Assembly (NCBI RefSeq): GCF_004340525.1
Contig: NZ_SLWX01000016.1
Span: 1-64,000, forward strand
Origin: Chromatocurvus halotolerans
GTDB lineage: Bacteria > Pseudomonadota > Gammaproteobacteria > Pseudomonadales > Halieaceae
Reading direction: 5' to 3'
Length of the DNA stretch: 64,000 bases
Each line of letters starts with the position of its first letter. Position 1 is the first letter of the stretch. Both the position numbers and the translations under genes were made by a program. This document shows positions 19,722-23,317 of the stretch, piece by piece. Below the pieces are notes generated by a model. That model was not told where the DNA came from. It saw nothing but the letters and a program-made list of their open reading frames with translations, and ran no database searches.

Positions 19722-22445
19722 ATGTCCGATACCGCGCCGCTGGTCCTGGTAGATGGCTCATCCTATCTCTACCGTGCCTTTCATGCCCTGCCGCCTCTGA
19801 ACAATTCCCGCGGTGAACCCACGGGCGCGGTCAAGGGCGTGATCAGCATGATTCGCCGACTGTACAAGGATTATCCGGGAAGCACCGTTGCCGTGGTGTT
19901 TGACGCGCCGGGCAAGACCTTCCGCGATGAGCTGTTCGAGTCCTATAAAGCCCAGCGGCCACCGATGCCCGACGATCTGCGCGAGCAGGTGGCGCCGATC
20001 CACAACATTGTGCGCGCCATGGGGCTGCCGCTGCTGTGCGTCGAGGGTGTAGAGGCGGATGACGTGATCGGCACCCTGGCGCGTCAGGCCGCAGGTGCCG
20101 GGCAGCACGTGGTGGTATCTACCGGCGACAAGGACATGGCGCAGCTCGTCAACGCCCATGTGACGCTGGTCAATACCATGACGGATACCGTGCTCGACGA
20201 AGCGGGTGTGCGCGAGAAATTTGGTCTGCCACCCTCGCTCATCATCGACTTCCTCGCGCTGATGGGTGACAAGGTCGACAACATTCCCGGCGTACCCGGC
20301 GTGGGCGAAAAGACGGCCCTGGCGCTGCTGCAGGGGCTCGGCGGCGTGGACGATATCTATCGCTCACTCGACCGTGTGGCAGGCCTGTCTTTTCGCGGCG
20401 CAAAAACCATGGCTGCAAAGCTTGAGGCGGAGGAGGCGTCGGCCCGTCTTTCCTACCAGCTGGCGACGATCAAGACCGATGTCGAACTGCCCTTCGCGGC
20501 GCAGGACCTGGCACCCGGGGAGCCGGATACGGACAGCCTGGTGGAACTGTTCCAGCGCATGGAATTCAAGGCCTGGCTGGAAGAGCTGCTGGTCGCCGGT
20601 GCCTTGGCTGAAGGGGATGACGCGTCGGGCATCAACCGCGACGCCTATGCCCTGGTGACCACACAGCCCGAGCTGGACAGCTGGATCGCCCGCCTCAAGG
20701 AGGCGGAGCTGTTTGCCTTTGATACCGAGACCACAAGCCTCAACTACATGCTGGCGGACATCGTCGGCGTTTCGTTTGCGGTAACACCCGGCGAAGCCGC
20801 CTATGTGCCGCTGGCCCACAGCTACGCCGGCGCGCCGGAGCAACTTGATCGCGAGTCGGTGCTGGAGCAGCTGCGCCCCCTGCTGGAGGACCCGGCCCGG
20901 GACAAGATCGGTCAGAACCTGAAGTACGATAGCAGCGTTCTGGCGCGCTACGGCATCACCTTGCGCGGCATCCGCTTCGATACCATGCTGGAGTCCTATG
21001 TGCTGGATTCCACGGCCACCCGCCATGATATGGACAGCCTGGCCCTGAAATATCTCGGGCACAAGACCATTCACTTCGAGGACGTGGCGGGAAAGGGAGT
21101 AAAACAGATTACCTTTGATCAGGTGGCGCTCGAGCAGGCGGGACCCTATGCGGCCGAGGATGCGGATATCTGCCTGCGACTTCACGAGGTGCTGTGGCCC
21201 CGGCTCGAGGCGGAGCCGGGATTGCGCTCGGTGTTCGAGGACATCGAGCTGCCGCTGGTGTCGGTGCTGTCGAAAATAGAGCGCCAGGGTGCCCTGCTCG
21301 ATTGCGACCTGCTCGGGCGCCAGAGCGAGGAACTGGGCGAGCGGCTCGGCATGCTGGAGAGGGAGGCCCATGATCTTGCGGGCCAGGTGTTCAACCTCGG
21401 TTCCACCAAGCAGCTGGGCGAGATCCTGTTCGACAAGCTGGGCCTGCCTGTCATCCGCAAGACACCCAAAGGCGCACCGTCCACTGCAGAAGAAGTGCTC
21501 GCAGAGCTGGCGCTGGATTACCCGCTGCCCAGGGTGCTGCTGGAATACCGTGGCCTGAGCAAGCTGAAGTCCACCTACACCGACAAGCTGCCGACCATGG
21601 TCAATCCCGAGACCGGGCGCCTGCATACGTCCTACCACCAGGCGGTTACCGCCACCGGCCGACTGTCTTCCTCCGACCCCAATCTGCAGAACATTCCCAT
21701 CCGCAGCGAGGACGGCAGGCGCATTCGCCGCGCCTTCATTGCCCCTGAGGGCTGGAGGGTGCTGGCGGCGGATTACTCTCAGATTGAGCTGCGCATCATG
21801 GCGCACCTGTCTGGCGACGCCGGGCTGCTGGATGCTTTCAACGAAGGCCTGGACGTGCATGCTGCCACGGCGTCCGAGGTGTTTGATGTGGCGCTGGATT
21901 CGGTGTCATCCGAGCAGCGGCGCAAGGCCAAGGCGATCAATTTTGGCCTGATCTACGGCATGTCGGCCTTTGGTCTGGCGCGCCAGCTCCACCTGGGTCG
22001 TCAGGAGGCCCAGGCCTATATCGACCGCTATTTCGAGCGCTATCCCGGGGTGCAGGACTACATGGATCGTACGCGTGCGCTGGCCCACGAGCAGGGCTAC
22101 GTCGAGACGCTGTTTGGTCGACGGCTGTATCTGCCCGAGATCAATGCGCGCAACAAGATGCGACAGCAGGGCGCGGAGCGTACGGCCATCAATGCGCCCA
22201 TGCAGGGCAGCGCGGCGGACATTATCAAGAAGGCGATGCTTACCGTGAGCAAATGGCTGGACGCGGAGTCAGTGCCCGCTTACCTTGTGATGCAAGTGCA
22301 CGACGAACTGGTGCTTGAGGTTCGAGAGGATGTGGTGGAAGAGATCAGTGCGGCGGTCTGCGAGCGCATGTCCGCCGCAGCCGAGCTTGCCGTGCCTCTG
22401 CTGGTAGAGGCGGGCACTGGCAGCAACTGGGACGAGGCGCACTGA
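19722..22445 (+). CDS. polA: DNA polymerase I
   Basis: Repair and lagging-strand maturation polymerase of 907 residues with all three domains. The 5'-3' exonuclease is at about 1-300 ([55 protein letters not shown]). The 3'-5' proofreading domain (about 320-510) keeps its acidic residues: [18 protein letters not shown] and [13 protein letters not shown]. The polymerase domain has motif [17 protein letters not shown], motif [15 protein letters not shown] and motif [11 protein letters not shown]. All three activities are therefore expected. Followed by the sRNA locus, as in Pseudomonas (and Spot 42 in E. coli). Confidence 0.98.
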
Positions 22446-22488
22446 TCAGCGGGTGTGCGGCGTGGGGAAAAAAATTTCCACGGTTATG

Positions 22489-22515
22489 GAACTCGCATGT
22501 CAGCACCCGGTCTAC
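22489..22515 (+). promoter_or_regulatory. Predicted sigmaE/AlgU-type promoter of the sRNA
   Basis: GAACTC (22489-22494), 16-nt spacer, TCTAC (22511-22515). This fits the extracytoplasmic-stress consensus GAACTT-N16-TCtgA and would start transcription near 22520, exactly where the first hairpin of the sRNA begins. It lies 44 nt beyond the polA stop. Confidence 0.6.
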
Positions 22516-22518
22516 TTA

Positions 22519-22638
22519 CGTGTGGCAATTGCCACGCATGATGTCTGCACTTCCCCGGTGCGACATCACTTTCTCTTCCCCTGAGAAAGCCATGTGCCCG
22601 ACTCGCGCTCCCCCTCTGCGTTGGTCGGGCTTTTTTTT
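22519..22638 (+). ncRNA. ErsA/Spot 42-position small RNA with C-rich loops
   Basis: Roughly 120-nt RNA between polA and engB. Four consecutive stem-loops can be read. SL1 is 22520-22537 (GTGGC/GCCAC). SL2 is 22540-22567 (GATGTC/GACATC plus GCAC/GTGC) with loop TTCCCCG. SL3 is 22569-22589 (CTTTCTC/GAGAAAG, perfect 7 bp) with loop TTCCCCT. SL4 is the intrinsic terminator GCCCGAC/GTCGGGC, whose loop holds CCCCC, followed by eight T. Three loops thus expose C-runs able to pair with Shine-Dalgarno sequences. Position and promoter type match Pseudomonas ErsA, an AlgU-dependent Hfq-associated sRNA; identity as ErsA itself is inference. Confidence 0.8.
22596..22638 (+). terminator. Intrinsic terminator of the sRNA
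   Basis: Stem GCCCGAC (22596-22602) with GTCGGGC (22624-22630), an inner CGC/GCG pairing, and T8 at 22631-22638. It is ten bases from the convergent engB stop. On the minus strand no T-run follows the stem, so it terminates only the plus strand. Confidence 0.9.
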
Positions 22639-22648
22639 GGCCTGGGGA

Positions 22649-23317
22649 TTACGGCCTTTCTTCATCGCCCTCACTGTCATACAGCACACTGGTGTCCGTG
22701 AGCCAGGCATCGAGAACCCCCACCAGTGTCTTGTGGCCGGTATGCTTGAGGGACGAGAAGAGCTGAACGGACATCCCTTCGGGGTAGGTTTCCGCACGCT
22801 TGCGCGCCTGCAGCAATGTGGCTTCGGCGGGACCACGCTTTAGCTTGTCGGCCTTCGTCAGCAGCATGTGTACCGGCATACCCGCCGCGCTCCCCCATTC
22901 CAGCATCTGCAGGTCGAAAGGTTGAAACGGGCGGCGGATATCCATCAGCAAAATCAGCCCGCGCAGGCTCTGCCGTTCCTGCAGGTATTTCTCCAGCTGA
23001 CGCGTCCAGGCGTCCTTGACGGCCTTCGGCACCCGCGCGAAGCCATAGCCCGGGAGGTCTACCAGACGCTGCCGGTCACTCAGCGCAAAAAAATTGAGCA
23101 GCTGCGTGCGCCCGGGCGTTTTCGAGGTGCGCGCCAGCTTCGGCTGCCCCGTAAGGCTGTTGATGGCGCTGGATTTCCCCGCGTTGGAGCGACCGGCAAA
23201 TGCCACTTCCCAACCGGTATCTGTCGGGCACTGTGACACCTTGCCCGCACTCTGCAGGAATGTGGCTTTGCGATAATCCGGTGCTGCCATGGCGGTGTCG
23301 CCGGGCGCTTCTGACAT
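22649..23317 (-). CDS. engB: Ribosome biogenesis GTPase EngB (YsxC/YihA)
   Basis: Small Era/Obg-type GTPase needed for 50S subunit assembly. The 222-residue protein has all G motifs: G1 GRSNAGKSS, G2 TPGRTQ, G3 DLPGYG, G4 TKADK and G5 SSLKHTG. An N-terminal tail of about 35 residues is normal. It faces the sRNA gene, and its transcript could run antisense through it. Divergent from the cytochrome c5 gene. Order polA-sRNA-engB is conserved in Pseudomonas and Enterobacteria. Confidence 0.96.
   Translation of the reverse strand: MSEAPGDTAMAAPDYRKATFLQSAGKVSQCPTDTGWEVAFAGRSNAGKSSAINSLTGQPKLARTSKTPGRTQLLNFFALSDRQRLVDLPGYGFARVPKAVKDAWTRQLEKYLQERQSLRGLILLMDIRRPFQPFDLQMLEWGSAAGMPVHMLLTKADKLKRGPAEATLLQARKRAETYPEGMSVQLFSSLKHTGHKTLVGVLDAWLTDTSVLYDSEGDEERP

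Follow-up and report, generated by a model that had tools for sequence, protein, structure and literature searches.

What is encoded in the gap between polA and engB of Chromatocurvus halotolerans, and how does it relate to the small RNAs reported beside polA in other bacteria? ErsA of Pseudomonas is AlgU-dependent (PMC5819304), lies between polA and engB, and pairs through an unstructured domain (PMC8575079). The sX13 gene of Xanthomonas, located 175 bp downstream of polA, specifies an RNA with two 4C loops and one 5C loop, and these C-rich loops repress mRNAs bearing G-rich motifs at the ribosome-binding site in an Hfq-independent manner (PMC3771888). sX13 was stated to be exclusive to Xanthomonadaceae, and its authors raised the question of similar RNAs at the polA locus of other bacteria (PMC3771888). 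We took up the question in a 64,000-nucleotide stretch of C. halotolerans DNA, referred to here as the window, for which an initial annotation had proposed a small RNA (sRNA) driven by a stress sigma factor between the two genes.

A predicted four-hairpin RNA gene between polA and engB

The RNA locus (22489-22638) falls inside a gap of 203 bp around which polA and engB are convergent (Table 1). The predicted fold (126 nt) has a minimum free energy of -59.6 kcal/mol, versus -33.3 +/- 3.4 kcal/mol in 200 dinucleotide shuffles (z = -7.7), none of which was as low, and it contains four adjacent hairpins. An Rfam scan of the window and 20 relatives at gathering cut-offs returned no match. A 107-aa open reading frame at 22520-22843 was also considered as a protein; because it passes the terminator and runs antisense through engB, and because the covariation described below is that of an RNA, the protein reading was dropped.

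Table 1. Features of the polA-engB region in the window.
Feature	Position	Strand	Remarks
polA (DNA polymerase I)	19722-22445	+	upstream neighbour; commonest upstream neighbour of the RNA
A/T-rich tract/inverted repeat GGGGAAAAAAATTTCC	22464-22479	+	immediately 5' of the -35 box; possible UP element
-35 element GAACTC, sigmaE/AlgU (RpoE)-type	22489-22494	+	from sequence and conservation
-10 element TCTAC	22511-22515	+	16 nt past the -35 hexamer
Small RNA gene, ~120 nt	22519-22638	+	5' end placed from the promoter, 3' end from the U run
Hairpin 1 (GUGUGGC-AAUU-GCCACGC)	22520-22537	+	loop AAUU, without C
Hairpin 2	22539-22568	+	apical loop (U)UCCCC(G)
Hairpin 3	22569-22589	+	loop UUCCCCU
Hairpin 4, intrinsic terminator	22596-22638 (hairpin 22596-22630, T8 22631-22638)	+	loop UCCCCCUCU, then U8
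engB/ysxC (GTPase)	22649-23317	-	convergent downstream neighbour

Covariation among relatives of the same taxonomic family

A plain-DNA similarity search found only one relative, so that structure and position were needed to find others. The polA-engB gaps of relatives in the same taxonomic family keep the promoter, the four hairpins and the C-rich loops, and most of these relatives, folded singly, gave the same architecture. The family structure was set by hand from the individual folds. Among 21 family sequences, 18 of the 28 pairs are changed at both positions and yet paired, values that none of 500 shuffles reached; with the partner shifted by 1-3 columns, the proportion of paired cells fell from 90% to 32-44%. 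In hairpin 2, all seven model pairs covary.

These results bear out much of the initial annotation, which had placed an sRNA between polA and engB with coordinates that proved correct to within 1-2 bases. Its four adjacent stem-loops are recovered both in the fold and in the relatives, and the three loops that it called C-rich (the second, the third and that of the terminator) are so, the loop of hairpin 1 being without C. Relatives with neither the stems nor the C-rich loops would have counted against it; they keep both.

Distribution of the RNA in the order and the class

From 110 order genomes and 109 class genomes we collected approximately 700-800 nt lying 3' of polA. A simple filter requiring a GAACT-type promoter, then a hairpin array and a terminator, identified 41 order genomes (20 families; a few of these cases are weak) and 26 class genomes. 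A covariance model built from the window's taxonomic family only (R1) was run on whole genomes. Excluding genomes in which no polA was found, the best R1 match lay just 3' of polA on the same strand in 16 of the 29 order genomes with a match (14 outside the family and two in the training family) and in 20 of the 34 class genomes with a match, the remaining 14 having their best match away from polA. The chance of a match at the polA-side position is about 1e-4 per match.

A class-wide model (R2) was then constructed from 75 R1 matches, nearly all of them on the polA side. In its alignment all 28 pairs are double-changed, with 596 such cells versus 179 in shuffles (75 homologues, aligned to fit the model); since the alignment is fitted to the structure, the slid-partner control, with a covariation score of 0.66 versus at most 0.11, is worth more than the shuffle count. 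At E up to 0.1, R2 finds matches in 82 of 143 class genomes, where training loci match by construction and E-values come from a short calibration, and the RNA family is present in more than half of the Gammaproteobacteria genomes that were sampled. R2 matches outside the class were weak, and two that were examined had neither polA nor engB nearby and were treated as chance.

In the window and its genome the sole R2 match is at 22510-22636 (68.2 bits; the window sequence is a training member of R2). The window RNA has the four hairpins of the family in their fixed order with compensatory changes, for which, the window being a training member, the support comes from relatives. It likewise has C runs in loops 2, 3 and 4 and not in loop 1, a position after polA and convergent on the 3' side of engB, and a sigmaE-type promoter.

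Across the 75 homologues the stem letters vary freely and the loops of hairpins 2-4 remain C-rich: CCC occurs in the loop of hairpin 1 in 4/75, of hairpin 2 in 43/75, of hairpin 3 in 65/75 and of hairpin 4 in 68/75. The class-wide consensus has an anti-Shine-Dalgarno-like loop in hairpin 2 (CUCCcUG) and CCCC in hairpins 3 and 4. Many homologues outside the window's taxonomic family carry CCUCCCU as the hairpin 2 loop, which resembles the anti-Shine-Dalgarno end of 16S rRNA.

A promoter of the sigmaE type

The stress-sigma promoter GAACTC-N16-TCTAC given in the initial annotation was found at the same boxes and is kept in relatives. Within the 21 family homologues, the -10 region has a GTC that is invariant or nearly so. 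The A/T-rich tract of the window, possibly an UP element, has comparable counterparts 5' of the -35 box in some relatives (e.g., loci L011, L021 and L026). Because the -35 region lies outside R1 and R2, counts of the box are independent of the models: GAAC[TA] is present in 62 of the 75 polA-side homologues used to train R2 (2.3 expected from shuffles), and 53 of these 62 have it at an identical offset.

The genome encodes a clear RpoE (314 bits, above NCBI's cut-off). Approximately 100 bp 5' of the RpoE match lies the gene's own promoter, GAACTTGCAGGCGTCATCATGGTCTA, which reads GAACTT-N16-TCTA and has the same box and the same spacing as the sRNA promoter. A promoter of this type at rpoE is as expected for a gene that would be autoregulated.

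Copies away from polA and engB as a frequent neighbour

We took 42 R1 or R2 matches that are not immediately 3' of polA on the polA strand. A GAAC[TA] box stands at sigmaE spacing in 33 of them (1.4 expected), two of the 33 (L336 and L337) having the box more distant upstream than usual. On the polA side, engB is convergent and just downstream in 62 of the 63 loci where it falls in the examined stretch. Away from polA it lies within the examined stretch in 22 of 40 loci and is convergent with the RNA in 19 of the 22, so that engB is often a lasting neighbour where polA is not.

That the locus is no more than the end of the polA transcript (its terminator and 3' untranslated region) or a terminator serving both convergent genes, without a regulatory role, is highly improbable on these data. 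Such a reading would account for the site between convergent genes and for the strong terminator at its end, but not for a conserved promoter within the gap, three further covarying hairpins, loop letters that are kept while stems change, or homologues that persist where polA is not a neighbour.

Several individual arrangements were also observed. In three genomes (L332, L338 and L339) the sRNA is on the engB strand with its promoter kept, which suggests that the gene was inverted as a cassette. Tandem copies of a C-loop sRNA occur at L314:581-907 (G229), where one copy has a GAACT box and the next AAACTTT, and at L319:519-849 (G263), where the box is GAACT in one copy and degenerate in the other. 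Between the sRNA and polA of G243 there is a TwoAYGGAY RNA motif (L295:2113-2191; 44.1 bits, cut-off 43).

Relationship to sX13

Held-out sX13 loci scored 33-38 bits with R1, which gave its best match in each locus at sX13, and R2, whose training set included the sX13 locus L268, has its best matches at the sX13 genes in two Xanthomonas-type genomes outside that set (G373 and G377). Conversely, the Rfam sX13 model (RF02232) scores the window at 28.3 bits (E 8e-4), below its gathering score of 50. Both RNAs are encoded downstream of polA, are about 115-120 nt long and begin with a small hairpin, after which come three hairpins with C-rich loops, the last being the terminator. The window RNA shows the combination by which sX13 is recognized, a gene 3' of polA with three C-rich apical loops (4C, 4C and 5C). 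sX13 is the nearest relative of the window RNA in structure and probable mode of action, a relative that the initial annotation did not name.

The two differ in that sX13 loci lack the sigmaE-type promoter, and control therefore differs between the branches, a pattern suggestive of a promoter exchange in the sX13 lineage. The sX13 loci L268, L294 and L296 have a common conserved upstream stretch, TTCACGAACC...TATA.

Relationship to ErsA

The likeness to ErsA is weaker than that to sX13. R1 scores ErsA loci at 19-22 bits, again as the best match in each locus, and in G097, G129 and G156 R2 matches best at ErsA genes (its training set included one relative of ErsA, L063). ErsA (Pseudomon-1) shares with the window RNA the polA-engB gap, an AlgU-type promoter sequence, a C-rich terminator loop and the same GTDB order, which includes genomes whose polA-side RNA is ErsA above Rfam's cut-off. 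Where ErsA has its unstructured domain II with the core GUGUUUAGUGUUGGC, the window RNA has the covarying C-loop hairpin 2. The core is present in f8, f21 and f36 and absent from the window RNA; as this pairing domain is missing, the mode of action need not match.

Could the window RNA nevertheless be an ErsA orthologue in the narrow sense, with the same promoter, the same targets and a linear seed used with Hfq? The shared locus and AlgU-type promoter and the R1 scores speak for it, as does a match of the Rfam ErsA model (RF01719) to the polA side of a genome of the window's taxonomic family (G016; 25.3 bits, E 0.014). We nonetheless regard it as unlikely, given that the same model scores the window itself at 15.4 bits (E 0.9, gathering score 50), that the ErsA core is absent, and that the single-stranded region of ErsA corresponds to a covarying C-loop hairpin.

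Away from polA, two families of the order (f43 and f2) have loci that match the ErsA model, with or without a match to R1 (L333:469-590 in G078, L334:479-576 in G114, L336 and L337). The f2 copies keep the ErsA motif GUGUUUAGUGUUG.

Anti-hemB, Spot 42 and the question of a hotspot

In B. cenocepacia, transcription of anti-hemB (ncS04) has been verified (PMC5688073). Anti-hemB scores weakly with R1 (16.7 bits), and its Rfam model (RF02837), which has two helices only, unlike the window RNA, scores the window at 22.0 bits (E 0.0033, gathering score 49.5). At L301:1499-1590 (G385), adjoining engB, the anti-hemB model (55.2 bits) and R2 match the same place. Anti-hemB (Burkholderia RNA 7) thus probably belongs to the polA/engB C-loop family. 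The alpha-r7 sRNAs of rhizobia, for which a polA locus, three stem-loops and C-rich motifs have been described (PMC3771888), are similar to the window RNA on that description.

The initial annotation had matched the position to those of Spot 42 and ErsA and suggested that, if position alone were shared, the locus would be a hotspot for unrelated sRNAs. For ErsA the match extends to the promoter, the hairpins and the C-rich loops, so that the idea of a hotspot is mostly wrong: one family occupies the locus, with Spot 42 as the apparent exception in E. coli. Spot 42 (spf) does share the position between polA and yihA/engB, but the likeness ends there. It scores 9.4 and 9.6 bits with the family models, essentially through the terminator only, the Rfam scan gave no Spot 42 (RF00021) match in the window, and kinship was rejected.

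Convergence, in which the gap has repeatedly gained unrelated, terminator-like sRNAs rich in C and the likeness is one of G+C-rich hairpins and terminators only, we judge distinctly improbable. G+C-rich terminal hairpins in all such RNAs do inflate scores, and Spot 42, at the same site in E. coli, is unrelated by R1 and R2; yet convergence would not predict four hairpins in fixed order with C runs in hairpins 2-4 only, an unmodelled promoter in 33 of 42 copies away from polA, or genome-wide best matches beside polA or engB.

Taken with the promoter in the unmodelled region, the R1 and R2 matches indicate that ErsA and sX13, and probably anti-hemB as well, branched from one family. As the window falls below the gathering scores of RF01719, RF02232 and RF02837, we file its RNA in this broader family and under none of the three. 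Rfam has no clan for ErsA, sX13 and anti-hemB, which are filed apart, and a search of the open-licence literature found no paper joining ErsA with sX13.

Proposed function and significance

The stress-sigma-driven sRNA of the initial annotation is well supported by comparison, through the promoter, the covariation, the conserved loops and the terminator. We conclude that 22489-22638 is probably the gene of a trans-acting envelope-stress sRNA transcribed by RpoE/AlgU, in a single old family of Gammaproteobacteria to which ErsA, sX13 and probably anti-hemB also belong. The family would sit 3' of engB, usually in the gap that separates engB from polA, with these three RNAs as its lineage-specific forms.

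Envelope stress in this organism would free RpoE, which would transcribe the window RNA. Hairpin 1 probably serves as a cap for the 5' end, and the C-rich loops would be exposed on the other three hairpins, with almost no single-stranded seed; in an RNA without a long seed of this kind, the loops are the most likely starting point of pairing. On the model of sX13, they may base-pair with G-rich Shine-Dalgarno regions and block translation, with or without a role for Hfq, and three loops could serve several targets or a multi-point contact. Loops so compact and repeated might instead mainly titrate a protein or bind other sRNAs as a sponge, leaving ribosome-binding sites aside. We think this improbable, as the decoys of CsrA/RsmA carry GGA motifs, not C runs. 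Furthermore, for the relative sX13 there is direct evidence of pairing with G-rich mRNA motifs (PMC3771888).

A wider proposal, to which we give an even chance, is that a sigmaE-dependent sRNA family was already present in the ancestor of much of Gammaproteobacteria (a class that in GTDB takes in Burkholderiales) and that ErsA, sX13 and anti-hemB descend from this family. Its loops would mimic the anti-Shine-Dalgarno sequence (CUCC in hairpin 2, CCCC in hairpins 3 and 4) and repress translation broadly under envelope stress; in E. coli, Spot 42, which is unrelated, would occupy the locus, and other sigmaE sRNAs would do the work. The window RNA appears to be a new member of a family that ties together RNAs hitherto filed separately (ErsA, sX13 and probably anti-hemB), and sX13, reported as exclusive to Xanthomonadaceae (PMC3771888), is here part of a broader family.
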